This document shows positions 3,871 through 58,972 of a DNA stretch of 64,000 nt, in pieces. How positions within the stretch are numbered: position 1 is the first letter of the stretch; every line of letters starts with the position of its first letter. The position numbers and the translations under genes are program-made. The stretch comes from Desulfallas thermosapovorans DSM 6562 (GTDB lineage: Bacteria > Bacillota > Desulfotomaculia > Desulfotomaculales > Desulfallaceae): the NCBI RefSeq assembly GCF_008124625.1, contig NZ_VNHM01000014.1, positions 1 through 64,000 of the forward strand, written 5' to 3'. The notes under the pieces are model-generated. The model saw only the letters and a program-made list of their open reading frames with translations. It was not told the DNA's origin and did not search any database.

Positions 3871-4482
3871 ATGAGTGCTTTTGTGGAACCGCTGAATATC
3901 ATCATTACCGGTGTGGGTGGTCAGGGCAACGTGCTGGCCTCTCAGGTGGTTTCCGTGGCTGCGGTGGAGGCCGGGTACAGGGTGGTGGTGGGTGAAACCT
4001 TTGGTGTTTCCCAGCGAGGCGGCTCAGTTATGAGCCACGTGCGCATTTCCAAAAATAAAACCTACGGCCCTTTGATTCCCCGGGGACAGGCGGGGGTGAT
4101 TGCAGGTTTTGAACCCCTGGAGACTTTACGGGTGATGTTTAATTACGCCAACCCGGACACGGTGGTGATTATGAATGACCGCCCCAATTACCCACTGGGC
4201 TGTTTGCTGGGGGAGGACAATTACCCTGAACCGGCTCGTATCGAGGATACCATTAGAAGGCGGGTGACCCGGTTGTACTGCTTGCCGGCCACTGAACTGG
4301 CCAAGGAGGCGGGCAGTCCCCTGGCGGCTAACATGGTAATGACCGGCGCACTGGTGGGCAGTGGTTTATTGCCCTTTGGGCGTGAATACTTCACTCGAAC
4401 AATTGAAATTTTGTTTAAGGATGGCGTACGGGATTTAAACCTGACCGCCTTTGAACTGGGCTACCGGCTGGTGGCCGGGTAA
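3871..4482 (+). CDS. iorB: Indolepyruvate ferredoxin oxidoreductase, beta subunit
   Basis: 203 residues, the gamma-type pyruvate:ferredoxin oxidoreductase domain. It has the N-terminal glycine motif TGVGGQGNVLAS and the conserved SQRGGSVMSHVRI block that helps bind the substrate and TPP dimer. It starts with no gap after iorA, so the two subunits are co-translated. A terminator follows at 4543. Confidence 0.93.
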   Translation: MSAFVEPLNIIITGVGGQGNVLASQVVSVAAVEAGYRVVVGETFGVSQRGGSVMSHVRISKNKTYGPLIPRGQAGVIAGFEPLETLRVMFNYANPDTVVIMNDRPNYPLGCLLGEDNYPEPARIEDTIRRRVTRLYCLPATELAKEAGSPLAANMVMTGALVGSGLLPFGREYFTRTIEILFKDGVRDLNLTAFELGYRLVAG

Positions 4483-6909: not shown

Positions 6910-7476
6910 TCACTGTTTGTCGTATAGCCAGGTATAAACCTTATAATTCCACAATACCTTGCGCACAAAATTTCTTGTTTCCGGGTAAGGGATCGCGGCT
7001 ATGTCTAAGATCCCACCCGATATCTTGTCTTCCTCCAGCCATTTGCGTACATTGCCCCGCCCTCCGTTATAAGCGGCCAGCACCATTATTTTGTTGCCGG
7101 CGAATTCATCCTCTAGATTGGCGATATACCAGGCGCCTAGGCGGATGTTGGTTTCCGGGTCAAACAGCAGCTCCGGGTGGTAGGGATAAAGGTTGATTTG
7201 TTCGGCAATCCACGCGCCTGTTTCGGGCATGATTTGCATCAATCCCCGGGCATCTTTGGGGGAAACAGCGTTGGGGTTGAAATTGCTTTCAGTTTTCATT
7301 ACTGCGGTTAAAAAATAAGGGTCAATTCCGGCCTTGTCCGCATATTTTAATATTTTATCGCTGTAGGGCATGGGATAAAGCAGTTTAAGTATACTGGTAA
7401 AGTTAACGAGAACCAGTAGTATAAATAGGAATAATATGAATCTGAATTTATTCAGCCTGCGCCTGCGGGCGGTCAA
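6910..7476 (-). CDS. Membrane-anchored lytic murein transglycosylase (SLT domain)
   Basis: About 189 residues. A basic N-terminus and one membrane segment (FRFILFLFILLVLVNF) are followed by a soluble lytic transglycosylase domain. That domain has the catalytic glutamate in MKTESNFNPNAVSPK, then GLMQIMP and AAYNGG. It cleaves peptidoglycan glycan strands. The start is uncertain: a TTG at 7476 has GGAG 8 nt upstream, a GTG at 7485 is in frame. The gene overlaps the end of coaE (7448) in another frame and is probably co-transcribed with it. Confidence 0.88.
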   Translation of the reverse strand: MTARRRRLNKFRFILFLFILLVLVNFTSILKLLYPMPYSDKILKYADKAGIDPYFLTAVMKTESNFNPNAVSPKDARGLMQIMPETGAWIAEQINLYPYHPELLFDPETNIRLGAWYIANLEDEFAGNKIMVLAAYNGGRGNVRKWLEEDKISGGILDIAAIPYPETRNFVRKVLWNYKVYTWLYDKQ

Positions 7477-8065
7477 TGGTATCACTCCATATTTGCTGCA
7501 ATTGTTGTAGTGTTTCACCGGGGGTACCGCTGTTGTCGATAACCCTGTGGGCATAGGGAAGCTTGTCTTCCTGGGGCATTTGGGCAGCCAGGCGGCGGGT
7601 CACTTGCTCTGCGGTGGCGTTGTCCCTTTTCATTACTCGCTGGATTTGCGTCTTGGCATCCACGGTTACCAGCCAAACCTGGTCAACAATATTATTCATT
7701 CCCGTTTCAATGAGCAGCGGGGCCTCGATAACCAGCAGGGGGGCGTCCCGTTTAGTTTTATAATCGGCGATATCCTTTAATATTTCGGCCCTAATGGCGG
7801 GGTGTACAATAGAGTTCAGGCGTTTTAGGGCTTCCGGATCATTGAAAACTATTCGAGCCATTTTAGGCCGGTCCAGGGTACCGTCGGCATTTAATATGCC
7901 GGTGCCGAAATGCTTGATGATTTGGTTTAGCGCCGGTGTTCCCGGGGCTACCACATCCCTGGCCACCTGATCGGTATCAATTACCCTGGCCCCCATTTCC
8001 TTTAAAAAACGGGCCACGCTACTTTTGCCGCTCCCTATATTGCCGGTAAGTCCAACTACTAGCAT
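7448..8065 (-). CDS. coaE: Dephospho-CoA kinase
   Basis: 205 residues. The last step of coenzyme A synthesis: phosphorylation of the 3'-hydroxyl of dephospho-CoA. The P-loop GLTGNIGSGKSSV lies at about residues 5-17, DTDQVARDV follows, and the substrate-binding block VIEAPLLIETGM is intact. Length is normal. The order polA-mutM-ytaF-coaE is the usual one in many spore-forming Firmicutes. Confidence 0.95.
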   Translation of the reverse strand: MLVVGLTGNIGSGKSSVARFLKEMGARVIDTDQVARDVVAPGTPALNQIIKHFGTGILNADGTLDRPKMARIVFNDPEALKRLNSIVHPAIRAEILKDIADYKTKRDAPLLVIEAPLLIETGMNNIVDQVWLVTVDAKTQIQRVMKRDNATAEQVTRRLAAQMPQEDKLPYAHRVIDNSGTPGETLQQLQQIWSDTIDRPQAQAE

Positions 8066-8242
8066 ATCTTATTCCCCCCAAAAAGCAATTATTAATATTT
8101 CTTCCGGTTTTATAAGTATCCTGCTGTAGACCTTGCTATAATATGAAAATTTTCGAGAAAATTTTTGTCCGGCTTGCGCCGGACATATGGAATAATAGTG
8201 AATTAAATTGTTGTTACAGATTTTTGCACAGTTGGTTTAATA

Positions 8243-8263
8243 AAGTTTAAGCCTGACCCCTTA
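8243..8263 (-). repeat. GGGGTCAGGCTTAAA repeat abutting the ytaF stop codon
   Basis: In the direction of ytaF the stop TAA is directly followed by GGGGTCAGGCTTAAAC. The same TAAGGGGTCAGGCTTAAA directly follows pheS at 60056-60073. The repeat resembles short REP-like sequences scattered in Firmicute genomes. The rest of the 8066-8260 gap holds no gene. Confidence 0.6.
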
Positions 8264-8926
8264 ATGCATTTTAAATAAACCCAGGGCAATGAGTATAAAA
8301 CCGGGCAGCGTGGCTATTTTTTGGTTTAGACCTCTATTTCCGGCGCTCATGCCGGCCAGCAGGCCCAGGTAGGTGAGCATGAAATGTCCCAGGCCCACCA
8401 TCAGGGCAGTGTATAGTATGTTAAAGCCCAGCATGGATACGGCAAACCCGGCGGCGAATGCATCCATGGCCAGGGCCAGGCCCAGCAATACCGCCTCCCG
8501 GCCTGAAATTACACCGGAACGGTCCAGGTCGGCCCGGTAGGGTTCCCGCAATATTTGAATAACCAGTCCCAGCGAGCGGATATGGATCTGTATTACCGGG
8601 TCGGGTATATCAGCTTCTTTTTCCGTTTCCATTTCTGGTTTGGCCCGGGCTTTTTTACGGTTTTCCTGTAAGGATTGTATCAGCACCCATATGCCGATGG
8701 ACATTAAAATAACCCCGCCCAGTCTGTGGGCAAAGGTTGCGGAGAAGTAACCGGCTACTGTATTGCCCAGCACCATAGAAACGGCGATGGCTGTCATGGA
8801 CATGATACTGATAATGGCCAGCGATGTGACGGGCAGCTTTATATTGCGTACACCGTAAGCCACGCCCGCTGCAAAGGAGTCCATGTTCAGCGCCAGCGCA
8901 AACACTGCCAGAGCTAAAAGCTCCAT
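8261..8926 (-). CDS. ytaF: Sporulation membrane protein YtaF (MntP/DUF204-like)
   Basis: 221 residues with six hydrophobic segments in two similar halves. Both halves hold the signature of this family: NMDSFAAGVAYGVR near residue 14 and AMDAFAAGFAVS near residue 150. The family is related to manganese exporters (MntP), and YtaF is the sporulation-associated branch. An ATG at 8926 is preferred over a more upstream start because a GGGGGG run lies just upstream. It sits between mutM and coaE as in related genomes. The exact substrate is unknown. Confidence 0.88.
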   Translation of the reverse strand: MELLALAVFALALNMDSFAAGVAYGVRNIKLPVTSLAIISIMSMTAIAVSMVLGNTVAGYFSATFAHRLGGVILMSIGIWVLIQSLQENRKKARAKPEMETEKEADIPDPVIQIHIRSLGLVIQILREPYRADLDRSGVISGREAVLLGLALAMDAFAAGFAVSMLGFNILYTALMVGLGHFMLTYLGLLAGMSAGNRGLNQKIATLPGFILIALGLFKMH

Positions 8927-9031
8927 TTGACTTTCCCCCCTTGTCGCCATAAATTTTGCTCTTCTCAATACTATGGCGGGGAAAGTCGAAGTGTGCATGA
9001 GTGCGCCGGGTGCGCGTGGACTAATGTGTGG

Positions 9032-9862
9032 CTATTGTTTCCGCTGGCAGGCGGGGCAGAAGTAAGAGCTGCGACCGCTTACTTTCATACGGGCAATGGT
9101 GGTGCCGCAATGGGGACAGGGGAGGCCTTCGCGGTTGTATACCCGCAGCAGTTTCTGGTAGTTACCCTTTCGCCCGTCACCGTCCACGTAGTCCCGGAAG
9201 GATGTGCCCCGGTTTTGGATCCCTTCCCGAAGCACTTCAATGATGGAGTGGTACAGGTTGGCTATCTCCCGGGGGGACAGCGAATTGGCTATGCGCATGG
9301 GATGAAGACGGGCCCGGTGCAGGGCTTCATCGGCGTATATATTGCCCAACCCGGCAATAAAGGTTTGATCCAGCAACAGCGTTTTTAGGCGAACCCGTTT
9401 GCGTTTAAGCTCCCGGCGTAATAAGTTCCTGGTGAAATCCTTCTCTAAAGGCTCTGGCCCCAGGTCCTTGAGCCCTTTCACCTGGTTTAATGCCTGCTTG
9501 GGGGCCAACTGGATACGCCCGAATTGACGCATATCCGCAAAACGCAGTTGGTTGCCGTTGCTCAGCGAAAAGATGACGTGGGTATGCCTGGGCAGCGGCT
9601 CGCCCGGTGCAGCATAGATTAGCCGGCCGGTCATGCGCAGGTGAATAATCAGTACTTTGTCGCTGCTTAAATATAGCAGCAGATACTTGCCGCGCCTTCC
9701 CAGACCGGTAATTTTGCGTCCTTTGATTTGTGCGCCAAATTCCTGGGGAGAGGGTTCCCGGATGATTTTGGGCATGGCTATATCCACACTATCAATGGTT
9801 AGCCCGGTTAATTTGAGTTCCAGGGTTCTTTTTACTGTTTCAACTTCCGGTAATTCAGGCAT
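9032..9862 (-). CDS. mutM: Formamidopyrimidine-DNA glycosylase
   Basis: 276 residues. A base-excision repair enzyme removing 8-oxoguanine and formamidopyrimidines. The N-terminal Pro-Glu catalytic pair is intact (MPELPEVETVKR), which fixes the start at the second ATG. It has GRRGKYLLLYL with the conserved lysine, GLGNIYADEALH (helix-two-turn-helix) and a C-terminal zinc finger (CPHCGTT, CPAC). The 5' end nearly touches the polA stop, so they share an operon. Confidence 0.96.
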   Translation of the reverse strand: MPELPEVETVKRTLELKLTGLTIDSVDIAMPKIIREPSPQEFGAQIKGRKITGLGRRGKYLLLYLSSDKVLIIHLRMTGRLIYAAPGEPLPRHTHVIFSLSNGNQLRFADMRQFGRIQLAPKQALNQVKGLKDLGPEPLEKDFTRNLLRRELKRKRVRLKTLLLDQTFIAGLGNIYADEALHRARLHPMRIANSLSPREIANLYHSIIEVLREGIQNRGTSFRDYVDGDGRKGNYQKLLRVYNREGLPCPHCGTTIARMKVSGRSSYFCPACQRKQ

Positions 9863-9864
9863 GT

Positions 9865-12492
9865 TCACGGCACCTTTCTAACGTCATACCAGTTGGGGCC
9901 CAGTTTTAGATCCACCACCAGAGGCACGTCCAGATGTAGGGCGTTCTCCATGTATTCCCTGACCAGTTTTTTAACCTCGGTAAGTTCATCCGGGGGAACG
10001 TCGAATATCAGCTCGTCGTGCACCTGTAAAATCATCTTTGTGGCCATGTGTCGTCTCTTAAGTTCACCATGTATTCTTACCATTGCCAGCTTTATTATGT
10101 CCGCGGCGCTTCCCTGGATAGGGGTATTGATGGCCGTGCGTTCGCCAAAGGCCCGGGTTACCCGGTTACGGCTTACAATATCCGGCAGGTAGCGGCGGCG
10201 GTTGAGCAGCGTAGTGGTGTATCCTTTTTCCCGGGCCTCGGATATTTTACGGTCGATAAATTCTTTGACCCCGGAGTAACGCTCAAAGTAGCTGCGGATA
10301 TATTTGCCCGCCTCGGCCCGGGGTACCTTGATATCCCGGGACAGGCCATAATCGCTGATACCGTACACAATACCGAAGTTTACCGCTTTGGCCCGGCTAC
10401 GCATTTCCGGTGTTACCTGTTCCATGGGTACATTAAACACCTCGGCGGCTGTGCGGGTATGGATATCCTGCCCTTTTTTAAACGCGCCGATCAGGTTGGC
10501 ATCCCCGGACATGTGTGCCAGAATGCGCAGCTCAATTTGCGAGTAATCCGCAGTCAGGATCAGATTACCCGGACGGTGGGGGACAAATACCTTCCTTATC
10601 CTGCGCCCTTCTTCCAACCGGATAGGGATGTTTTGTAAATTGGGATTTGAGCTGGACAGCCTGCCGGTGGCGGTCACATCCTGGTGAAAGGTGGTGTGAA
10701 TCCGGCCGCTGGTGGGGTTAATCAGGCCGAACAGCCCGTCGATATAAGTTGATTTAAGTTTGGCCAACTGGCGATAAGCCAAAATTTTATCCACGATAGC
10801 GTGGTTTGGAGCCAGTTCCTCCAGTACCGAGGCATCGGTAGAAAAACCGGTTTTGGTTTTCTTAATTACCGGCAGCCCCATTTTATTGAATAATATGTCA
10901 CCCAGCTGTTTAGGTGAGTTGATATTGAATTCCTCACCGGCCAGACGGTAGATTTCCAACACCAGGCCCTCGATTTGCCGGCCGGTTTCTTCAGCCATAT
11001 TGCATAATATTTGGGGGTCTACAGCTACCCCTTCCATTTCCATATCCGCCAGTACCGTCACCAGCGGCAACTCCACTTCGTAGTACAACCGGTCCATACC
11101 GGTTTCCACCAGTTTTTGCTGCAGGAGCTGTTTAAGCTGCCACAGAGTGTCCACCCGGGCCGCTGTGGCGGCTTCACCTCCGGTGGGTAAAACCAATTGC
11201 AGGTACTGCAGGGCCAAATCCGCCAGTGAATTTTGGGACATGCTGGGATTAAGCAGGTAAGCGGCCAGTTGGGCATCAAAATCAAGATTCCTTAGTGTAC
11301 GGTTATGACGATGCAGCAGCCACAACACCTCTTTACCGTCGGCGCAGATTACTTTTACCCGGGGGTCGGAGCAAATATCGGCTACAAGGTCCAGCGCTGC
11401 GACTTGTTCCTTTACCGGTAGAAGGTATGTTGTACCAACGGGGGAGATGGACAGGGCCGCATAATTAATTCCTGCTTCCCGGGTGCCGGAAAGATCCAGT
11501 GCCACCATGCCGGAGGCAATACAATTACTCCTTATTTGACTTAATTTCTCCTCAGATGACACCCGTCGATATTTAGCACAATATGTCTTGAGTTCGTCCT
11601 GGCCGTTCTTATTATCTTCCAGGCCAGCTTTATTGATGATGTTATGGACAAGAGTCTTAAATTCCAGTTTGCTAAAAATATCCAGCAGGGCCGGGTAATC
11701 CGGCCCCGGCCATTTAAACTGTTCCATATCCATATTTAACGGCACACGGCGGTCAATGGTAGCAAGTTTTTTAGATAGCTGCGCCAGATCCCGGTGTTCT
11801 ATTATTTTGTTTCGCCAGCGGGTGGGTAACTTATTGGCTTCGGCAATTACGTTCTCAATGGTGCCGTATTCCTGAATCAGCTTAAGAGCTGTTTTTTCGC
11901 CGATGCCCGGCACGCCGGGAATATTATCGGAAGTGTCTCCCATTAATCCTTTTATATCAATGATTTGTGGCGGGCTGACCCCGTAACGGTCCCAGACCCG
12001 TCCTTCATCATATTCCTCCATTTCGGTTATGCCCTTCTTAGTTAGAAGCACCCGTACCCGGGGTGAAACCAGTTGCAGGGCGTCCCGGTCTCCGGTTAGT
12101 ACAATTGACTCGATGCCCTTGCCATCGGCAAAGCCGGCGAGGGTACCGATAATATCATCGGCCTCAAAGTTTTCCAGTTCCAGGGTGCAGATACGCATGT
12201 GGTGCAGCACCTCTTTCAGCAGTGGGAACTGGGAACGTAGCTCGGGCGGGGTAGCTTTGCGCTTGGCCTTGTAATCTGTGTAGGTGGCATGCCTAAAGGT
12301 GATTTTGCCTTTGTCAAAGGCCACCGCAATATAGGTTGGTTCTAATTCCCTCAGCACTTTAAAAAGCATATTGGTGAAACCGTACACAGCATTGGTAACT
12401 GTGCCATCACTGGTGGACAGCGGTGGAATGGCATGAAAAGCCCGGTGAACCAAGCTGTTACCATCTATAATTAGAAATTTTTCAGGGGACAT
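9865..12492 (-). CDS. polA: DNA polymerase I
   Basis: 875 residues, normal length. The N-terminal 5'-3' exonuclease/FEN domain (LIIDGNSLVHRAFHA, FEADDIIGTLA, GDTSDNIPGVPGIGEKTA) spans about the first 300 residues. A 3'-5' exonuclease-like domain follows that appears to lack the usual acidic metal ligands, as in many Gram-positive enzymes. The C-terminal polymerase domain is intact: motif A TADYSQIELRILAH, the motif B region RSRAKAVNFGIVYGIS, and motif C LQVHDELIFDVP. It is the first gene of the polA-mutM-ytaF-coaE-SLT minus-strand unit. Confidence 0.96.
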   Translation of the reverse strand: MSPEKFLIIDGNSLVHRAFHAIPPLSTSDGTVTNAVYGFTNMLFKVLRELEPTYIAVAFDKGKITFRHATYTDYKAKRKATPPELRSQFPLLKEVLHHMRICTLELENFEADDIIGTLAGFADGKGIESIVLTGDRDALQLVSPRVRVLLTKKGITEMEEYDEGRVWDRYGVSPPQIIDIKGLMGDTSDNIPGVPGIGEKTALKLIQEYGTIENVIAEANKLPTRWRNKIIEHRDLAQLSKKLATIDRRVPLNMDMEQFKWPGPDYPALLDIFSKLEFKTLVHNIINKAGLEDNKNGQDELKTYCAKYRRVSSEEKLSQIRSNCIASGMVALDLSGTREAGINYAALSISPVGTTYLLPVKEQVAALDLVADICSDPRVKVICADGKEVLWLLHRHNRTLRNLDFDAQLAAYLLNPSMSQNSLADLALQYLQLVLPTGGEAATAARVDTLWQLKQLLQQKLVETGMDRLYYEVELPLVTVLADMEMEGVAVDPQILCNMAEETGRQIEGLVLEIYRLAGEEFNINSPKQLGDILFNKMGLPVIKKTKTGFSTDASVLEELAPNHAIVDKILAYRQLAKLKSTYIDGLFGLINPTSGRIHTTFHQDVTATGRLSSSNPNLQNIPIRLEEGRRIRKVFVPHRPGNLILTADYSQIELRILAHMSGDANLIGAFKKGQDIHTRTAAEVFNVPMEQVTPEMRSRAKAVNFGIVYGISDYGLSRDIKVPRAEAGKYIRSYFERYSGVKEFIDRKISEAREKGYTTTLLNRRRYLPDIVSRNRVTRAFGERTAINTPIQGSAADIIKLAMVRIHGELKRRHMATKMILQVHDELIFDVPPDELTEVKKLVREYMENALHLDVPLVVDLKLGPNWYDVRKVP

Positions 12493-20480: not shown

Positions 20481-20555
20481 GGGTGCATAGCTCAGGGGGA
20501 GAGCACTTCCTTGACGCGGAAGGGGTCGTAGGTTCAATTCCTACTGCACCCACCA
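20481..20555 (+). tRNA. tRNA-Val (anticodon GAC), attachment site for the element
   Basis: GGGTGCA acceptor strand pairs with TGCACCC at the 3' end, followed by discriminator A and encoded CCA. The anticodon arm CTTCC-TTGACGC-GGAAG gives anticodon GAC, valine. The 3' 23 bases (20533-20555) are repeated exactly at 39849-39871, so the gene was the integration target and was restored by the incoming element. Confidence 0.95.
20533..20555 (+). repeat. attL: 23-bp duplication inside tRNA-Val
   Basis: Identical over 23 bp with 39849-39871 (TTCAATTCCTACTGCACCC and the following ACCA). The flanking bases differ on both sides, so the identity stops exactly at the crossover segment. Confidence 0.92.
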
Positions 20556-21866: not shown

Positions 21867-23780
21867 ATGTTTGAAAATCTTCGTGACCGCTTTGGTAAAA
21901 TTCCGGCAAAATACCAGTGGGCGGTAATTGCTGGCCTGGCGTTCATGGGGGCAGCGGCCATTCTTATTCTTGATGTATGGTTACTAGGTACTGCGGCAGC
22001 ATGGCTACATTGTGCCGTCACTAAGCTTGGCAGCGTTTCTATTTTCGCGACTGAAGCTGAGAAAGCGGCCGGAACCAATGCCTTTGATGCCGTCGGCTGG
22101 TACTGGCACCATCCTTTTTTCGTGGCTAAAGCCTGGCTTTTTGAAGCGGACAAGCTATCTAACCCGGAGGTTCGCACCTATTGGCTTTTTCTGAACGCTG
22201 GCCTTGGTATCCTGGGCCTGATCGGTGCAACCGCCGGTAAAATTCAGATTAAAAAGCGAAAAAACAATACCGAGCATCGTGACATCAGAAAGCTAAAATT
22301 CAAAAATGTTCGATACGATATTAACCGATACCTGGAAAAGACTCCGGAGAATCGATACTTCCTCGGCCTGGATGACCGGCGGCGGCCTGTGAACGTATCT
22401 GTCTCCGACATGTTCGAGCATATTCACATCTTGGGCGGTTCCGGAAGCGGCAAAACCGCCTTCGGCGTTACGCCTATTTGTATCCAGGCCATCAGGAAAG
22501 GCGCTGCCTTAGTAGCAATAGATTTTAAGGGGGATCGCCAGGCCATCCAGTTACTTGCCAGGGAAGCTGCGGCAAACAACAAAAGGTTTTACATTTTCAC
22601 GCTTGACCAGCGGGAAAAATCAAACACATATAACCCGCTGGCCACTGGCACCCCGCTGGGCAAAGCGGAACGGATCATGACAGCGCTTGAGCTAGTTTTT
22701 GAAGGAGAAGCGAGGTTTTACACATATGTGCAAAAGGCAACTTTTATCCCGCTTTTGGCTGCTCTTGATGCTCAAGGTGTTTCGTATACTCTCTCTGACA
22801 TATACGAAATACTACAAAATCCAAAACTGGTTTTCAAATTGACTGGTCAGCAGGTGGATGAAAATCAGATCAAAGGTCTAACGGCTGCGCTTTTACCTTT
22901 TGCCGAAATTGAACAAATAAACTTTGCCCAATCGGATATAAACCTAACAGAAATAATGGGAAATGGCGATGTGGTATATTTTGATCTTCAATCTGCATTA
23001 GCGCCGGAGGCCAGTTCAGCGCTAGGGAAAATGATTGCCCAGGACTTGCAATATTTGAGTGCTCCCCGGACACAGCAGTCTCGACCGGTCGTTATAGCGA
23101 TAGACGAATTTCAAAATATGGCCTGCTTGGCGTTTCGTAACATAATTTCAAAGGTGAGATCAAAGAACTATGCTTTGATACTGGCCAACCAGGCCATGGG
23201 CGATCTAATGGCTGTTAGTGATGATTTCACCAACACTATCCAGGTGAACACTCGCACCAAAATCATTTTTAACGCCGACACTCCTGCTGATGCTGAGTTG
23301 TTTTCGCAATACACCGGCACGGTATTGCAGACGGTTATGAACCACAGCAAAAACAAGACCCAAACTCATGGCTTAATGCCTGGTTGGTTTAAGGATGACC
23401 AGCGGCAAACCACCGGTGAAAGCAAAACTGAAATAGAGGTGCCGCTGCTGCACCCCAATCTTTTCAAAGCCATGCCCCCGGGCAAATCGGTGGTAATCAG
23501 GCGCGGCCAGCTGGCCACGATGGCCAATCATGCATACCTGATTTCAGAAGCTGAAAAAGACCGTCTGGAGCAACTACCGTTGCCGGAGCCTGTATTTATA
23601 CTTAGGGATGATAGGAGTGTGTTTATGATGGATGATATGTTAAAAAACGCCAAAATAAAGTTGGCAAAACAATCTGATCAGTCGGGAAATCCACTGCAAC
23701 CAGACAATCAAAATAAGGATGAGACACCAAACGCTGGCAAAAATGAAGGTGCTGCCGAGGCTAGTGAAATCGCATTATAG
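21867..23780 (+). CDS. VirD4/TraD-like type IV coupling ATPase
   Basis: 637 residues. Two N-terminal membrane segments (WAVIAGLAFMGAAAILILDV and NAGLGILGLIGATAG), then an AAA+/HerA-type motor. Walker A is ILGGSGSGKTAFG near residue 190 and Walker B is VVIAIDEFQNM near residue 410. A TraM/TraD-recognition style C-terminal region (RSKNYALILANQAMGDLM, NTRTKIIFNADTPADA) is present. Such proteins bring relaxase-bound DNA to a conjugation pore. ATG follows AAAGGAGC. With no pore genes in this element it would have to work with a helper system. Confidence 0.85.
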   Translation: MFENLRDRFGKIPAKYQWAVIAGLAFMGAAAILILDVWLLGTAAAWLHCAVTKLGSVSIFATEAEKAAGTNAFDAVGWYWHHPFFVAKAWLFEADKLSNPEVRTYWLFLNAGLGILGLIGATAGKIQIKKRKNNTEHRDIRKLKFKNVRYDINRYLEKTPENRYFLGLDDRRRPVNVSVSDMFEHIHILGGSGSGKTAFGVTPICIQAIRKGAALVAIDFKGDRQAIQLLAREAAANNKRFYIFTLDQREKSNTYNPLATGTPLGKAERIMTALELVFEGEARFYTYVQKATFIPLLAALDAQGVSYTLSDIYEILQNPKLVFKLTGQQVDENQIKGLTAALLPFAEIEQINFAQSDINLTEIMGNGDVVYFDLQSALAPEASSALGKMIAQDLQYLSAPRTQQSRPVVIAIDEFQNMACLAFRNIISKVRSKNYALILANQAMGDLMAVSDDFTNTIQVNTRTKIIFNADTPADAELFSQYTGTVLQTVMNHSKNKTQTHGLMPGWFKDDQRQTTGESKTEIEVPLLHPNLFKAMPPGKSVVIRRGQLATMANHAYLISEAEKDRLEQLPLPEPVFILRDDRSVFMMDDMLKNAKIKLAKQSDQSGNPLQPDNQNKDETPNAGKNEGAAEASEIAL

Positions 23781-24357: not shown

Positions 24358-25011
24358 ATGCCCAGGAAAAGGTTCTCCAAGGCGAAACAGCTTACGGTGC
24401 GGGACAAAAATATCCTCACCGACCTGGCCCGTTGCCGGGTATTGTCCGCTGAGCAAATCAAAAAAGCTTATTGGCCCACGGCCAAAGAGCGTACCTGTGA
24501 TGATCGGCTGAAACAATTGCAAAAAGCGGGATATATTACGGAGCATACCGTAAATGACGAAAAGCCGGGTAGCTCTTTGAAGGTGTACAGCCTTTCCACC
24601 AAGGGTAAACGCTGGGCCACCGGCCCGGAAGGACCGGGCCTGGATAAAAATATTGTGTTCACCCATCCGGGCAAGGCGAATGAGATAGTACACCAGGTTA
24701 GGACAAATGATGTCTATTTTCAGCTTAGTGATAACGAGAAGGCAACCTGGCGAATTGGTGATGCGTTGGAAATAGAACATGGCGTTTATGCCGGTGGTAC
24801 CGGTATGACGGTGCCGGATGCAGCTTATACCGGTGACGATGGTGAGGAAATTTATGTGGAAACAGACTGTGGCAAGTATACACCCACGCAGATCCGGGAT
24901 AAGGTGGCGGGCTTTGGCGATAAAAAGGTGGTTTGGGTGTGCCCTGCAGGGCGCGAACAGACGCTGGTAAGGCACGGGGCAGCAGGTGATTTTGTGACGT
25001 ACGTTGCGTAA
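24358..25011 (+). CDS. Replication-relaxation family protein (mobilization-associated)
   Basis: 217 residues. The N-terminal winged helix (TVRDKNILTDLARCRVLSAEQIKKAYW, RLKQLQKAGYITEHTV) and the C-terminal half with VETDCGKYTPTQIRDKVAGF match the plasmid 'replication-relaxation' family. That family is found beside conjugation and replication genes in Gram-positive plasmids and elements. A role in DNA processing for transfer is inferred from the family and neighbours; no relaxase tyrosine motif was identified. RBS GGAGG sits before the ATG. Confidence 0.7.
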   Translation: MPRKRFSKAKQLTVRDKNILTDLARCRVLSAEQIKKAYWPTAKERTCDDRLKQLQKAGYITEHTVNDEKPGSSLKVYSLSTKGKRWATGPEGPGLDKNIVFTHPGKANEIVHQVRTNDVYFQLSDNEKATWRIGDALEIEHGVYAGGTGMTVPDAAYTGDDGEEIYVETDCGKYTPTQIRDKVAGFGDKKVVWVCPAGREQTLVRHGAAGDFVTYVA

Positions 25012-32653: not shown

Positions 32654-32806
32654 ATGCCGGATAATGAGCTATTAGAATGGCTCAAAGCAAGGCAACGTTT
32701 TCCGATTGGGATAACGAAGAGGACGGTATATACGACAAATTATAAACAAATCATATTGCAGTGGGAAAACTACCCACTCTTATTTTTTGTAAGGAGGCAT
32801 GTATGA
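32654..32806 (+). CDS. Small ORF, overlapping an alternative frame
   Basis: 50 codons from the ATG at 32654 (MPDNELLEWLKARQRFPIG), just after the HicB-like gene. A second frame from the ATG at 32677 reads MAQSKATFSDWDNEEDGIYD and ends at 32745. The WDNEEDxIYD ending is a common C-terminal signature of small proteins and antitoxin-like proteins. A frameshift combining the two frames (MPDNELLEWLK then ATFSDWDNEEDGIYD) would look more natural, so this may be a broken gene. Confidence 0.4.
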   Translation: MPDNELLEWLKARQRFPIGITKRTVYTTNYKQIILQWENYPLLFFVRRHV

Positions 32807-33477
32807 AATTTCGCGTTGATGGGCTGGGTTTTTTCGGCAGCAGGCAATATGATACCCTGGAGGAAGCCAGGGCCAACATATACGATAAAAAAGGGCGTAA
32901 GGGTAATATCACAGTGGAACTGGCCGAAAAAGAATATGTCAGCTTAATAAACAGTTACAACGTTCAACTACAAAAAAACATGGGCACAATCCAGACTTTA
33001 CAGCAGGAAAACCAAAACCTTAAAAATCAAATACTCCATCTGCAAAACACATTGATACGTCCAGAAGTTGTGGAAGAAATAAGACGCCAGGCCCATCATA
33101 AGCTGAACGCTGAAGTAAAGGCCAGGGAGAAGATAACATTAGAATTGACTAATCAGCTTGAAGCAATGGCCAAACGGGAGAAAGGCTTGAGGGATGCCCT
33201 GGGCAGGTGGCAGAAAAAGGCTACAGGCGAAGATATGCGGCCACCTAAAGATTTGAAACAGAAAGGATTTCAATGCAATATAATAAAAAAACGTTTAGTA
33301 AAGGTATTTTTCCTGGAAAAATACCTGCCCCTCCCCTTTGATACCCAACTGGGTGAGGTGGAAAAATACGCGCTACAAGGACTGTCGGAGAAAGTTCAAC
33401 TTAAAAAGATATATTTAGATCGGGGCAAATGGGTGGCGCGGTTTGAATCACATGAACCGCTGGAAGAAGGCTTTTAA
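32803..33477 (+). CDS. Coiled-coil protein of unknown function
   Basis: 224 residues. An ATG at 32803 follows AAGGAGG. A long coiled coil is expected between about residues 40 and 150 (SLINSYNVQLQKNMGTIQTL, REKITLELTNQLEAMAKRE). The C-terminal part is basic. No family recognised. Directly followed by the putative large RNA. Confidence 0.65.
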   Translation: MKFRVDGLGFFGSRQYDTLEEARANIYDKKGRKGNITVELAEKEYVSLINSYNVQLQKNMGTIQTLQQENQNLKNQILHLQNTLIRPEVVEEIRRQAHHKLNAEVKAREKITLELTNQLEAMAKREKGLRDALGRWQKKATGEDMRPPKDLKQKGFQCNIIKKRLVKVFFLEKYLPLPFDTQLGEVEKYALQGLSEKVQLKKIYLDRGKWVARFESHEPLEEGF

Positions 33478-33504
33478 AACCTGGCATTCTATGGTATTAT
33501 AAAA

Positions 33505-34182
33505 ATATATATCTAACTAATTTTACTTTAATGTAACCTTCATGCTTATGCGTGATGCTAAACGGCACGAAGGAAAAACCTCAGCTGCAAGCGTGATGCT
33601 GGCATTTTGCACAGCTGATGGTTATTTGCAGGGTTCTTCTACTATTTCATCCCCTGGAAATAGTACGGATGGAAGCTCCGGAGCATGTTGCAAGCGAATA
33701 GCGCAACTGCTGAAGAACTGGCCCCAGGTAAAATCTCTGGCGTTAAGCGGGTGCAACTTGGGGAGCGAAGCCAATAGCGATGAGCTTGGCTTGCGGACAA
33801 AGGCTTAAAGCGATGAGTTAAGCCTAACATTTGAACCTGGTCCAGATAACTAAGCTGGCATATCAATGTCGGCACTGCGTGCAACAATGATATAGCCAGA
33901 CGGAGTTTTAGTAGGGTTAGTGTGGCACAGGTGTTAAACGATTCGCACATTGAAAATTTATCACCGGTGCCCGTCTCTGTTGACGGAGCCCATTTATAAA
34001 AAATTGCGGATAGCAATTTTTTATAGGGCGGAGTTAAACAGAGACGGGCTGAAAAAGCCCGTCAAAGTCACGGTAGCGTTAGGTTCCAGGGGTCGTCCAA
34101 GAAGAAAACCGCGAGAATTGATGGCTGGGGCTTTAGATTTCTTTTGCATTTTTAGGGGCCAGATATAGTCTGAGCCTTTTTT
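33505..34182 (+). ncRNA. Candidate large structured non-coding RNA (~680 nt)
   Basis: No convincing protein is encoded here; the one open frame at 33542-33808 has atypical composition. The stretch is packed with local helices: 33582-33617 (CAGCTG arms), 33642-33666 (ACTATTTC/GAAATAGT), 33768-33792 (AAGCCAA/TTGGCTT), 33801-33825 (AGGCTTAA/TTAAGCCT), 33970-34048 (CCCGTCTCTGTT/AACAGAGACGGG enclosing a 13-bp TATAAAAAATTGC stem). Two of these hairpins have the same loop, AGCGATGAG. CCCCTGGAA (33651-33659) is perfectly complementary to TTCCAGGGG (34084-34092), implying a long-range contact. It ends in an intrinsic terminator. It lies directly before an integrase gene. I cannot place it in a known class; GOLLD, ROOL and HEARO are the obvious comparisons. 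Confidence 0.7.
34157..34182 (+). terminator. Terminator of the putative large RNA
   Basis: GGC-CAGA-TATAG-TCTG-A-GCC hairpin (one bulged A) followed by TTTTTT. Confidence 0.7.
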
Positions 34183-34270: not shown

Positions 34271-35317
34271 TTGGGGGTGGTTTTTATTGCCATCAGGTAT
34301 ACTTTCAAAAAAACTGGTGTTGGGACAGTGGACAACCTGGGAGCTCAATTACAGAAAATAATCAGGGGAGCTAAGCAGGGTAGTAATGAAACTAAATACC
34401 GGTATATTGCTGCTTCGGAAAGGTTTATTCGGTTTGTGGCCGTAAAGTTTAAACTAAAGAAATTGCAAAACATCCAGGAGAAACATTTGCAGGCATATGT
34501 GGAGGATATGAGGCAACGGGGATGTGCGGATAAATATATAAAAACTGATATAGCCGGTATCCGGTATTTACACCGGCAGATACCTCAGACCAGGTATGAA
34601 TTGTTGGACGGCAGGGTTGCCAATAAGAAGTACGGGCTGGGCAGCACTCCGGACGGGCGAGCTGATCGGGCTTGGACGGAAAGGGAGTTAACGGATATGA
34701 AGGCTTTGGCCATGCAAAGGAATAAGCCTAATATCGCCCTGGCTCTGGAGACGGCCAGGGCCACGGGGATGCGCTTGGATGAGTTCTCTAGCTTGCGCCG
34801 GGCGGAGGTTGAGGCTGCGCTAAGGACTGGTGTTTTGCATCTTACTAATACTAAGGGCGGCCGGCCAAGGGATATCCCTCTTTCCCCCAGGACTATAGAT
34901 GCTTTTAGGGCAGCCCTAAAGCTTAGTAGCCGGGGGAGTTATGTGTTTACGCTGCCTGGTATGAAGGTGCATAAGTTTAAAGAGGCGGTTAAGAGTTTTA
35001 TTTGGCGGCACCGGGGATTGTTGCAAGATCCTAACCGCAATCGTACTGCACAAAACGTGAAGCCCGGTGAATTTGCTGCCCTGGCTGTCCATGGCCTGCG
35101 GCATACTTTTGCCAGGGAGTTCCTTATTGAAAGGTTCAAGGAGAACCTTGAAATGGGCCTTGACAGGGCCAGGGCTGAAAAGGAGGCCCGGAAGGTGACT
35201 TCTATGGTGATGGGGCATAACAGGGTTTCGGTTACTTTGATTTACGCGCCGAAGGGGTTGTTGGATGGTGTTGAGCAGGGGAACTTGTGTGGTGGCCACT
35301 GCAATGGCCACCGTTGA
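34271..35317 (+). CDS. Tyrosine recombinase/integrase A
   Basis: 348 residues. The phage-integrase catalytic residues are present in order: Arg in ARATGMRLDEFSSLR, HxxR in VHGLRHTFAREF, His in MGHNRVSVTLIYAPKG and the Tyr in the same block. The N-terminal SAM-like DNA-binding domain (YIAASERFIRFVAVKF) is intact. The first possible start is a TTG at 34271. However, GGGGGTGG at 34273-34280 would better serve a start at 34286, where the codon is ATT (reading IAIRYTFKKTG), so a non-canonical start is possible. The HxxR...H...Y spacing is normal. No att-like repeat was found next to this gene. Confidence 0.85.
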   Translation: MGVVFIAIRYTFKKTGVGTVDNLGAQLQKIIRGAKQGSNETKYRYIAASERFIRFVAVKFKLKKLQNIQEKHLQAYVEDMRQRGCADKYIKTDIAGIRYLHRQIPQTRYELLDGRVANKKYGLGSTPDGRADRAWTERELTDMKALAMQRNKPNIALALETARATGMRLDEFSSLRRAEVEAALRTGVLHLTNTKGGRPRDIPLSPRTIDAFRAALKLSSRGSYVFTLPGMKVHKFKEAVKSFIWRHRGLLQDPNRNRTAQNVKPGEFAALAVHGLRHTFAREFLIERFKENLEMGLDRARAEKEARKVTSMVMGHNRVSVTLIYAPKGLLDGVEQGNLCGGHCNGHR

Positions 35318-38645: not shown

Positions 38646-38692
38646 GACCCTGCCTGATTTTTTCCTGTTCTTTGCCGTTTAAGGAGGAGCGT

Positions 38693-39808
38693 ATGCAAAT
38701 GGCACAGGTAAAAAGGCGCGGAGTGAACAAGTATCAGATTTCAGTATACCTAGGGCGTGATGAAAATGGCAAACGCATATTCCACTATGAAACTTTCCAC
38801 GGCACCAAAACTCAGGCCCAGTACCGGGCGGCTGAACTCGAGGTTGAGATGAAACGTCGTACAGGACCCAGGAACGCAGCTATGATGGTGGATGAATACC
38901 TCCATTTCTGGCTAAAACGAATTCAAAATTCTGTTGATGAAGGGACCTACAGGACATATACATTCCACGTTAAGAGATTGAATCCTCTGGTGAAAAATCT
39001 GCCTATGTACGGGGTGACGGCTTTAGATCTTCAAGACAGGCTTTCGGGCTTATCCGGGCTGAAACCCAAAACTGTAAAAGGCATCTACGGCACCCTTAAG
39101 ACCGCTATGAGGCAAGCTGTTGCGTGGGGTATTCTTTCGATTGACCCCACAGTAGGGTTGAGGGCTCCAAGGGTGCCAAAAGCTGAAAAAAGAGTTCTGG
39201 AGGCCCGCGAGTTAGCAACACTACTTGAAGCTGCTAAGAATTATAAGCATCATGTCATAATTAGGATTATAGCAATTACCGGTATGCGCCTGGGTGAAGC
39301 GTTGGCCCTTAAATGGAAAGACGTAGACTTTGGGTCTGGAACAGTTGTTGTGCAGCGGGCAGTGAACACGCATAAACGTGAGCTAAAGCCGGAACCCAAG
39401 ACCCAGAGCAGTCGCCGGACAATACCGCTGGACGAAGAAACACTCATGTTTTTAAAGGATCTAAAAAATCAGCTACAAGAAAGGGTTGGTTCGAAGAAAA
39501 TACGTGAAGTGCTTGTTTTTTATGCTGATCACGACATAAATATTCCGGTTAGAGACAATACCGTGCGAAGAACGCTTAGAAGGGTGCTAAAATCGGCGGG
39601 GTTGCCAAATATAACTTTACATGATCTAAGGCATACGGCGGGAAGCCTCTTGGTGGCAGCTGGGTACCCATTGCCGTTGGTTTCAAGTTTTCTTGGCCAC
39701 AGTAGCCCCGCCACGACCACGGCAGTATATTCACATGCCATAGGCCGCGGCATTAATGTAACTGATGCGTTGCATGGTTGTCAGGCAGATTGTCGGGCAG
39801 ATAACTAA
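38693..39808 (+). CDS. int: Tyrosine integrase B (element integrase)
   Basis: 371 residues. The N-terminal AP2-like arm-binding domain (QVKRRGVNKYQISVYLGRDE) and SAM-like core-binding domain are followed by the catalytic core: Arg in AITGMRLGEALALKWKDVD, HxxR in LHDLRHTAGSLL, His in LGHSSPATT and Tyr in AVYSHAIG. An ATG at 38693 follows AAGGAGGA. The C-terminus lies over arm-like repeats and ends 40 bp from attR. It is the most likely recombinase for this element. Confidence 0.93.
   Translation: MQMAQVKRRGVNKYQISVYLGRDENGKRIFHYETFHGTKTQAQYRAAELEVEMKRRTGPRNAAMMVDEYLHFWLKRIQNSVDEGTYRTYTFHVKRLNPLVKNLPMYGVTALDLQDRLSGLSGLKPKTVKGIYGTLKTAMRQAVAWGILSIDPTVGLRAPRVPKAEKRVLEARELATLLEAAKNYKHHVIIRIIAITGMRLGEALALKWKDVDFGSGTVVVQRAVNTHKRELKPEPKTQSSRRTIPLDEETLMFLKDLKNQLQERVGSKKIREVLVFYADHDINIPVRDNTVRRTLRRVLKSAGLPNITLHDLRHTAGSLLVAAGYPLPLVSSFLGHSSPATTTAVYSHAIGRGINVTDALHGCQADCRADN
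39779..39802 (+). repeat. Candidate integrase arm-type sites, right end
   Basis: Two direct copies, TGTCAGGCAGAT and TGTCGGGCAGAT, located inside the last codons of int. They match the repeats at 20669-20710 near the left border. Confidence 0.6.
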
Positions 39809-39848: not shown

Positions 39849-39871
39849 TTCAATTCCTACTGCACCCACCA
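39849..39871 (+). repeat. attR: second copy of the tRNA-Val 3' end
   Basis: Exact 23-bp copy of 20533-20555, including the encoded CCA, without the rest of a tRNA. It is the right junction of the element. Confidence 0.92.
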
Positions 39872-41218: not shown

Positions 41219-41249
41219 ATAAACAAACAATTGTTTGGAGGGGGTTATT

Positions 41250-41515
41250 TTGACCAAGGCTAAATTGCAGGAAAACAGCAGGGAATCTGCACTGGAAAGG
41301 GCACTGGCTGAAATTGAAAAGAAATACGGAAAAGGCGCTATCATGAAACTGGGGGAAAAGGGAGCAAAAGTGGACGTTGAGGTCATCCCAAGCGGGATAC
41401 TGCCGTTGGATATTGCAGTTGGCATTGGCGGGCTTCCCCGTGGCCGGGTGATGGAAATATACGGCCCGGAGTCGTCCGGAAAAACAACCGTAGCATTGCA
41501 TGTTATTGCGGAACA
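41250..41515 (+). pseudogene. recA: RecA, truncated after the Walker A motif
   Basis: TTG start after GGAGGGGG. The N-terminus is clearly Rec[41 protein letters not shown] and [17 protein letters not shown] (Walker A). After about 88 residues the similarity stops at AE and unrelated sequence ([13 protein letters not shown]) follows. The rest of RecA, about 260 residues, is absent downstream. It is a second-copy recA on mobile DNA and non-functional in this form. Confidence 0.85.
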
Positions 41516-41533
41516 CCGGAAGAATATCACCGT

Positions 41534-42064
41534 ATGGGGAAAAACTTTCCCTTCCCTGTACCTGGTTCCTGTCTCAACCCGGAATGCCTTATTAAAGTAC
41601 CACCACAAAAACATGGTTTTTACAAACGCAATGCCATAGACGCTAATTTTAGCGGTCGAATTTTGATCCGCCGGTATTACTGCAAATACTGCGGCAAGAC
41701 CATTTCCTACCTGCCTTCCTTTTGTCTGCCATATTTTCAATACACCATTGAGACAATCCTTATGGCTTTGTGCTATATATTAGACTCCAATCACTCTCTC
41801 CGAGCCTGTTTAAAGCTTTTAAAGAACCTGGGATGGTCTTTGGCCCACCTGCAATTCTATGTGAAACGGTTTTTAAACAACCAAAACCGCATTAAAGTAG
41901 GCCTGCGCCAACTTATCCCCGGTATTATCCTGCCGCCGGACGAACAGGACAAAAGAAAAGGAGCCCAAAAAGTACTGCGCATTGTAATAACCGGATTTCC
42001 CCAAATCCAAACCTTTCAGGCAAGGTTTCATAAACAATGCAGATACTCTTTCATGGCTCCTTAG
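41534..42064 (+). CDS. DUF6431-type protein of an insertion sequence-like element
   Basis: 176 residues with a zinc-ribbon-like start ([45 protein letters not shown]). Such proteins are found scattered in Desulfotomaculum-like genomes as putative transposase accessory or IS-like genes. It begins right at the end of the recA similarity, so it most likely disrupted recA. No terminal inverted repeats were identified with confidence. The start codon is uncertain. Confidence 0.6.
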
Positions 42065-53874: not shown

Positions 53875-54148
53875 AAAGCGCGAATAAAATGCTGTAAATG
53901 TAATGATGAGGAAGAGTAAACTCTTACCGGTTCCCAGAGAGAGGGTGCCACTGGCTGGAAGCGCCTTTGTACACGGAGAGTTGAAAACCACCTTTAAACA
54001 GCCGTGTTGAACCCGTGGTAGAACATAGTAAATACGGCCGGTTGGCACCGTTACATGCCACTTAAGAAAGGCCCCAAAGGGTCTTAAATCAGGGTGGAAC
54101 CGTGGGATAATTATCTCGCCCCTGGCATACGTGCCGGGGGCTTTATTT
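53875..54148 (+). promoter_or_regulatory. T-box leader of thrS
   Basis: The T-box core AGGGTGGAACCGTGGG lies at about 54092-54107. A terminator follows: GCCCCTGGCA pairs with TGCCGGGGGC (10 pairs, one wobble), then TTTATTTATT (ending about 54148). A long stem-I region (53890-54090) precedes it. The specifier codon could not be fixed with certainty; an ACC at about 53991 is a candidate for threonine. The leader should bind uncharged tRNA-Thr and prevent termination. Confidence 0.9.
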
Positions 54149-58561: not shown

Positions 58562-58972
58562 TAATAAAGGTCCCCAAAAAATATGGAAAGGTTGTGGTTA
58601 AGTGTTTTTAACCGCCGAATTTTTTTGGAGGCTGTTTGAAGCAACGGGTTCCATCCGGGCGTATATGCTTTACAGAAGATTAGCTGTCCACTAATGCAGT
58701 ATAGATAAGCCAAAGGTAATGAAGGGGATAAGTAAGCGGCTATTTGCCTTACAGGGAGACGGGGTCATGGACTGGGAGCCTCATCAAGTGCAATCCGCTT
58801 AGATTCACCCCGGAACTGCAGCTGAACGTATTTCCAGTAGGTGTAGCCGGATTCCCGCCGTTACCGGGTCCGGGCCGAAAATGCCTTGGCCCGGGTTTAG
58901 AGTGGTTGAGCTTTAATGCACAAAATTAGGGTGGTACCGCGGATTAATCCGTCCCTTGGGGCGGTTTTTTAT
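58562..58972 (+). promoter_or_regulatory. T-box leader of pheST
   Basis: T-box AGGGTGGTACCGCGG at 58928-58942. Terminator CCGTCCC-TT-GGGGCGG followed by TTTTTTATTTTG (58949-58972). A TTC in TATTTCCAGTAGG (about 58829-58841) is a candidate specifier for phenylalanine, but its stem was not traced. A 410-nt leader is long for a T-box, so an extra segment may be present. Confidence 0.88.

Follow-up and report, generated by a model that had tools for sequence, protein, structure and literature searches.

An integrative element at a tRNA-Val gene carries a stretch without a protein gene

The window, that is, the whole 64,000-nucleotide stretch of Desulfallas thermosapovorans DSM 6562 that was analysed (contig NZ_VNHM01000014.1, positions 1 to 64,000), contains a 19.3-kb element that extends from tRNA-Val at 20533 as far as 39871 and has a copy of a 23-bp repeat at either end. 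Repeat matching placed the attL-like copy at the 3′ end of tRNA-Val (20533..20555, + strand) and the attR-like copy at 39849..39871 (+ strand). On the same strand lie genes for a TraG/VirD4-type coupling protein (21867..23780; PF12696, PF02534), a Replic_Relax protein (24358..25011; PF13814), a tyrosine recombinase, integrase A (34271..35317; PF00589), and an integrase beside attR (38672..39808; PF00589), the last of which is likely the element's own integrase. With att repeats, integrases, and a coupling protein present, this is an integrative conjugative or mobilizable element. Beyond attR, a frame at 41235-41639 is RecA-like at its start and then diverges, and transposable-insertion-like frames come after it; by our own reading, without a family search, recA is apparently interrupted beside the element. 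The window also holds two T-box leaders, at 53894-54126 and 58710-58959.

Between integrase A and the upstream gene c24 (32761..33477, + strand), which has no Pfam or NCBIfam match above the curated cut-offs, lies a structured RNA of about 678 nt, taken from promoter to terminator (33505..34182, + strand); its ends were inferred, not mapped. It is preceded by a promoter-like site (33473..33500, + strand) made of TTTAAA, 16 nt, and TGG-TATTAT, with 9/12 matches and a weak −35 box; TG precedes the TATTAT box, which ends at 33500. Behind it, a terminator-like hairpin with a T run from 34177 forms an intrinsic terminator (34146..34182, + strand), which a separate scan missed. An earlier note on this DNA had suggested that a large structured RNA, possibly a new one, lies here within a mobilizable element. 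The ends it gave, 33505 and 34182, agree with the promoter-like box before and the T run behind. Its statement that the RNA sits directly upstream of integrase A holds for the window, where the integrase frame starts 88 nt past the RNA, and the near-integrase setting is limited to the window's subgroup of relatives (see below).

Fold and anatomy of the window RNA

Positions 33505-34182 had a folding energy of −246.4 kcal/mol, as compared with −201.3 ± 7.4 kcal/mol for dinucleotide shuffles (n = 20; z = −6.1), none of which folded as well. The anatomy was read against the window's subgroup, namely, the window itself and loci L018, L019, L020, L022, and L024 (we number loci with L and genomes with G). 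All features below are on the + strand. A 5′ domain (33524..33628), with blastn matches in L018, L019, and L020 only, is followed by a conserved junction domain (33633..33718), in which an outer stem (33633-33639/33712-33718) surrounds three hairpins and which is supported by a common fold and by covariation. The minimum-energy fold of this domain is alike in five of the six subgroup members, the window included, with L019 differing, and the same fold is obtained by minimum energy in L069, L070, and L072. The hairpin CGGA-UGGAAGC-UCCG (33666..33680) has one pair that varies between AU, GC, CG, and UA. In the second conserved stem domain (33722..33763), 7/7 outer pairs are changed on both sides. 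A hairpin search identified three GNNRA-loop hairpin cores, GCGTTAAGC (33740..33748), GCGATGAGC (33777..33785), and GCGATGAGT (33810..33818). The order of the common core is the outer stem with its three hairpins, the second stem, and then further hairpins. At 33877..33913 only 37 nt are present in the window, as compared with 300 nt in L018, and at this place the window is also shorter than L019 and L020 by 230-240 nt. The window copy is therefore a shortened variant that is possibly impaired.

The 3′ domain (33969..34049), in which an outer stem of 13 bp encloses a second stem of 13 bp, is kept in all six subgroup members. It corresponds to the nested stems listed in the earlier note, which were both confirmed: the 12-bp stem 33970-33981/34037-34048 is an exact match and extends to 13 bp (33969/34049), and the 13-bp inner stem 33995-34007/34013-34025 is exact. 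The letters GACGGGCT and AGCCCGTC, for which an alternative pairing had been claimed, are present at 34043-34063. A long-range 9-nt complement (33651-33659 with 34084-34092) fared less well. Its letters are exact, but pairing across relatives was unsupported: good pairing is seen in the window and L018 alone, and duplexes between a loop and its own segment averaged −7.1 kcal/mol versus −6.55 kcal/mol for mismatched ones. The pairing is not conserved, and we dropped it as likely due to chance.

Relatives of the RNA occur in 30 genomes

Using blastn in relatives and in the class, we found clear copies in G003, G036 (two copies), and G108, and the regions upstream of integrase homologs added a copy in G064. 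A search of 398 genomes for the pattern CGG-N-TGGAAGC-N-CCGGA returned five matches: the window, three relatives that share its fold, and L073, discarded as a chance match. A covariance model, R1, was built from a nine-sequence alignment and its RNAalifold structure, in which 25/39 pairs showed double changes; its core has 136 positions and 39 pairs. R1 found the RNA in 24 of the 113 genomes of the window's class, in 8/398 genomes of a phylum sample (six of them outside the window's class), and in 5/22 genomes of a second class, none of which was new. The total came to 33 loci in 30 genomes and 11 families, and the length of the RNA in the family ranges from several hundred to about 900 letters. 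Its carriers are anaerobic bacteria, and by our own reading hosts include Moorella-like and Desulfoscipio-like ones.

We obtained no match by blastn of the window copy against plasmid and phage records. For the phage records this has little force, given how far the RNA has diverged, and R1 was applied to neither collection. In viral contigs, the DNA pattern used on the 398 genomes picked out 117 stretches; 80 of these were scored with R1 and the best reached only 22.3 bits. The two best by R1, L162 and L206, were examined and rejected as chance.

Covariation supports a structured RNA, and indels and pairing bias indicate that it is noncoding and from the + strand

Before counting pairs we removed 3 of the 33 rows, which were identical to others, leaving 30 distinct rows. 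In these, 93.0% of pair cells were standard pairs and 35/39 pairs were changed on both sides. The covariation score was 0.754, compared with 0.108-0.179 when partners were slid by 1-3 columns. Phylogeny was taken into account with a tree-aware null, our own script modelled on R-scape, in which substitutions are redistributed along the tree; the alignment had been fitted to the model. Over all column pairs, 8/8778 were significant at E ≤ 0.05, seven of them within the structure, and the eighth (columns 2-112) two steps outward of its outer stem. Limited to the 39 proposed pairs, the test was passed by 20, and in 21 rows outside model building by 15/39, some of these rows being close to seed rows. 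The pairs thus covary beyond what phylogeny explains, as expected of a structured noncoding RNA gene.

One reading would be that there is no RNA at all and that intergenic DNA, or a gene in decay, folds in this way by chance. The shortened window copy, a promoter-like site that does no better there than in shuffles, and antisense frames in some loci could be taken in its favor. However, covariation in rows that had no part in finding the structure contradicts it, and small indels are mostly not multiples of three. We regard chance folding as all but excluded and the family as very likely a real structured RNA family.

In the core pairs, GU and UG cells numbered 101 and AC and CA cells 17, and four group alignments gave GU to AC counts of 197/25, 82/13, 76/1, and 91/7. 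This excess names the + strand, although it depends in part on structures whose prediction had permitted GU pairs. Among small indels, those divisible by three numbered 155/1076, 12/83, 1/33, and 11/80 in four groups (pairwise, non-independent counts), and the longest sense frames ranged from 25 to 165 aa. By indels and frame lengths, no sense reading frame is conserved among the RNA relatives; antisense frames were outside this test, and in some loci open antisense frames do lie over the RNA, some of which cluster by blastp. Together, indels and the GU/AC bias indicate that the RNA is noncoding and comes from the + strand.

Promoter-like sites precede the RNA and terminators follow it

Upstream of the core, the best promoter-like site includes an exact TTGACA in 26/33 loci and beats shuffles at p < 0.05 in 15/33; the window's site is not among the latter. 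A terminator-like hairpin lies behind the core in all 33 loci; in L019, L020, and L022, the 3′ domain supplies the first of these with its inner stem. Hairpins of −9 kcal/mol or better before a T run were present in 33 loci, against 11.2 expected, and those of −16 kcal/mol or better in 29/33, against 1.5 in shuffles. Promoter-like sites ahead of the RNA and terminators behind it are thus shown.

What follows the RNA is variable: the first same-strand gene of at least 80 aa may encode an integrase or an SSB-like, PemK-like, DUF3854, or RadC protein, and in 12/33 loci it is 1.4-2.7 kb distant. From the promoter-like sites, the terminators, and this varying first gene, we infer, without expression data, that the RNA is a free-standing transcription unit.

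Two alternatives bear on this point. The RNA might be a cis-acting leader that governs read-through, by attenuation or antitermination, into the genes behind. A terminator does lie between the RNA and the following genes, among which SSB-like, ArdC, and RadC genes are frequent, and GNNRA pentaloops recall the boxB hairpins of lambdoid phages. Against a leader stand the variable identity of the first downstream gene and its distance in the 12 loci just mentioned, and we consider it unlikely. Alternatively, the functional fold might be that of single-stranded DNA, for instance, a promoter that works in single-stranded form on entry, or an origin of transfer. Lying with transfer-type genes on one side and ArdC/RadC-type genes on the other, the stretch is placed as a leading region would be, and G-T pairs are tolerated in DNA too. 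However, the strand bias names only the + strand, promoter-like sites and terminators favor RNA, and the stretch is long for such a site; we consider this reading very improbable.

The gene setting is conserved in most relatives

In the other loci, the usual order from upstream to downstream is a topoisomerase or coupling protein, an S1 protein, c6, sometimes c13, and the RNA, after which come SSB-like, PemK-like, ArdC, RadC, DUF3854, and integrase genes. Three of these labels (topoisomerase, SSB-like, and PemK-like) rest on our reading of the sequences. Pfam was run on one member each of the coupling protein, S1, c6, c13, RadC, DUF3854, ArdC, and integrase clusters; c6 and c13 had no Pfam match, nor did the one protein searched from the SSB-like cluster (c7). 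The coupling-protein cluster, checked with Pfam in that single member, occurs in 21/33 loci. No relaxase was identified in the relatives' elements.

The S1 cluster lies upstream of the RNA in 25/33 loci, that is, in 25 of the 27 outside the window's subgroup. The eight loci without it are the six of the subgroup, some of which are on short contigs, L113, which is cut by the contig end, and L125. From the end of the S1 gene to the RNA core downstream of it, the distance is 0.7-1.7 kb, or 4.1 kb in L021. Pfam found an S1 domain (PF00575) in one S1 protein, and two matched the NCBIfam models for ribosomal protein S1, far under cut-off; from the match spans, we read three S1 domains per protein. 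An arginine-rich C-terminal tail is present in 12 of 14 aligned S1 proteins and missing in L112 and L136.

The c6 gene, present in 23/113 genomes, tends to occur together with the RNA: 20 genomes have both, 3 only c6, 4 only the RNA, and 86 neither. The Fisher p of 2e−15 is too small, since the genomes are related. In the three genomes with c6 and no RNA found (G010, G025, and G092), R1 over the c6 loci ± 1.5 kb gave nothing significant.

The integrase is a less regular neighbor. A homolog of integrase A lies near the RNA in 20/33 loci. In five of these, which all belong to the window's subgroup, it is within 2.2 kb; in the other 15 it follows 4.7-9.0 kb downstream. Integrase A homologs are not always accompanied by the RNA: R1 found none in L055 and L056, where 8.6 kb and 1.9 kb of upstream sequence, respectively, were covered. 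In the subgroup, c24 adjoins the RNA in five of six members. Two details of this region were noted. In L020 (6690-9400), a 365-aa frame lies between the RNA and integrase A, and the sister copy L019 has the integrase directly next to the RNA. In the distant relatives L057, L058, L059, L060, L061, L062, L066, L067, and L021, an integrase A-like frame limited to the N-terminal part precedes a fuller integrase.

Taken together, conserved secondary structure, a gene setting conserved in most relatives, and the lack of a conserved protein frame are shown. Positions 33505-34182 are a noncoding RNA gene that stands by itself and belongs to a family of conjugative-type mobile elements.

The RNA matches no catalogued class

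Very large structured RNAs of bacteria fall into only a handful of known classes, and for GOLLD, ROOL, and OLE, the function is still poorly understood (PMC12286853). Rfam families include GOLLD, ROOL, OLE, HEARO, and IMES. We searched with all 4227 families of Rfam 15. At the gathering score, there was no match over the RNA in the window, L018, L019, L020, L022, or L024. At a relaxed E-value, the best match in the window was mir-4659, on a hairpin, with 26.1 bits against a cut-off of 92, and in 20 of the 33 loci only two sub-threshold matches appeared, both outside the RNA. The literature searched held no report of this RNA, most subscription papers being outside our reach.

The earlier note had proposed a check with Rfam covariance models and a covariation test on homologs, and had named a lack of covariation among homologs, or a conserved protein frame across them, as what would refute its claim. 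Rfam assigned no family, covariation among the 33 loci is strong, and no such frame was met among the sense frames checked; along with the element's bounds, these results support the claim. As for the likeness it had seen to GOLLD and ROOL in size and setting, what the RNA has in common with known classes goes no further than being large and ornate. The RNA is a new family, since no catalogued class matches.

GOLLD and ROOL occur in phages and prophages and form RNA cages whose function is unknown (PMC12286853). Like GOLLD, the present RNA is large, ornate, noncoding, carried by mobile elements, and of unknown function (PMC12286853). However, GOLLD is reported in phages and prophages, often near tRNA islands, whereas this family resides in conjugative-type elements, has no Rfam match, and gave no blastn match of the window copy in phage records. 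ROOL is similar in length (659 nt for the solved ROOL; PMC12286853), ornate fold, and mobile setting, but is reported in phages and prophages, and again Rfam gave no match. OLE is another large ornate bacterial RNA, for which sequestration of the ribosomal protein RpsU has been proposed (PMC12286853), the candidate here being an S1-like protein; it differs in that Rfam found no match and in that the present RNA belongs to mobile elements.

A further possibility was a ribozyme, chiefly a relative of circularly permuted group II introns. Those RNAs are ~900 nt long, noncoding, and found in Firmicutes on chromosomes and plasmids (PMC8637638), so size, noncoding nature, and the occurrence of plasmid and chromosome copies are shared (PMC8637638). 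Rfam assigned nothing above cut-off at the place assigned to the circularly permuted group II RNA of pTT8. Since Rfam thus seems blind to this class, we tested it directly with features taken from PMC8637638, using pTT8 as control. A domain-5 scan (AGC, two-nt bulge, tetraloop) gave candidates in only 2/33 RNAs, L021 and L121, at unrelated places; the one candidate in pTT8 we take to be its domain 5, by position and form. GUGYG was present +290 to +370 nt from the core start in five of the nine RNAs checked and missing there in four. In tblastn searches over the 33 contexts, AcpG matched only the pTT8 control, keeping in mind that a nearby AcpG is frequent, not universal, in the class. Finally, R1 found nothing significant in pTT8. 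With domain 5 not shared, GUGYG not constant, and AcpG absent, we dropped this identity; despite the likenesses in size, noncoding nature, occurrence in Firmicutes (PMC8637638), and GUGYG in some RNAs, a ribozyme of this kind is very unlikely.

Repeated GNNRA hairpins and a proposed trans-acting scaffold

One kind of hairpin recurs in the family. We searched for a GNNRA loop closed in a GC/GC-type manner over a small bulge, the loop form thus being fixed by the search, and found 137 in the 33 RNAs as compared with 7.25 in shuffles. There are two or more in 32/33 RNAs and five or more in 16/33, with counts spanning 1 (L122) to 8 (L129). The window has three; one more hairpin, with a GAAUA loop, went uncounted by the GNNRA search. 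Within an RNA, the middle loop dinucleotides were identical in 102/161 pairs, whereas 74.8 were expected when loops at one position were swapped among RNAs of a group (27 RNAs, six near-identical loci removed); 0/2000 permutations reached the observed value. Permuting across all groups lowered the expectation to 49.8. This agreement inside single RNAs exceeds chance and suggests that the loops evolve together to suit one partner, though there are no binding data.

In what we infer to be the most likely reading, the transcript would act in trans as a scaffold on which a protein partner meets several GNNRA-loop hairpins that are nearly identical. For the main lineage, the element's own S1-domain protein with its arginine-rich tail would be the best candidate. 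RNA and S1 protein would form a particle that may serve the life cycle of the element, in excision, transfer, or first expression in a new host. In the window's subgroup, no S1 gene lies in the stretches examined and the RNA core is kept with its own 5′ and 3′ domains; the partner there may be another protein. Our confidence in this scaffold falls a little short of even, as expression, action in trans, S1 binding, and a role in the life cycle are all inferred. Several observations speak against it. The S1 gene sits in a conserved block, so that closeness may not mean binding; it was found in none of the six subgroup loci, some of them on short contigs, although hairpins persist there; and the S1 proteins of L112 and L136 lack the tail, yet the RNAs keep their hairpins.

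A bolder version draws on lambdoid phages, whose boxB hairpins bind arginine-rich N proteins. The likeness consists of GNNRA-type pentaloops and a candidate arginine-rich peptide. Here, however, a single long RNA has several copies, an S1-domain protein carries the peptide as its tail, and no binding has been shown. In this version, the RNA would be a new class and a core component of a family of conjugative elements. With its several boxB-like hairpins, five or more in half of the loci, it would be bound by the element's S1 protein with an N-like tail, and the resulting particle would take over transcription or translation for the element during transfer or upon entering a new host; in the absence of binding data, this is no more than a possibility.

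The hairpins could instead contact other copies of the RNA, in an RNA-only homo-oligomer or cage like those of GOLLD and ROOL. Size, helix density, mobile setting, and unknown function fit the reports on these RNAs (PMC12286853), and same-sequence loops repeated along one RNA would suit intermolecular docking. Against a cage are the absence of an Rfam match to GOLLD or ROOL and the nearby S1 protein gene, which it leaves unexplained; it remains possible. The family, spread over 30 genomes of 11 families, is tied to conjugative-type elements and not to phages. With a candidate protein partner and a repeated hairpin open to mutation, it would make the wider question of what large mobile-element RNAs do directly testable.

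Lastly, some flanking genes of the relatives' elements were recorded. Upstream of the RNA element, a T2SSE ATPase and a sub-threshold TadE match were seen in L254 (G470; 7186-12144) and an A24 prepilin peptidase in L256 (G064; 3354-3893). These elements may use a Tad-like apparatus. In G064 again, an RNA element has two giant frames, 2558 and 2630 aa long, on its downstream side (L257, 2326-17985).
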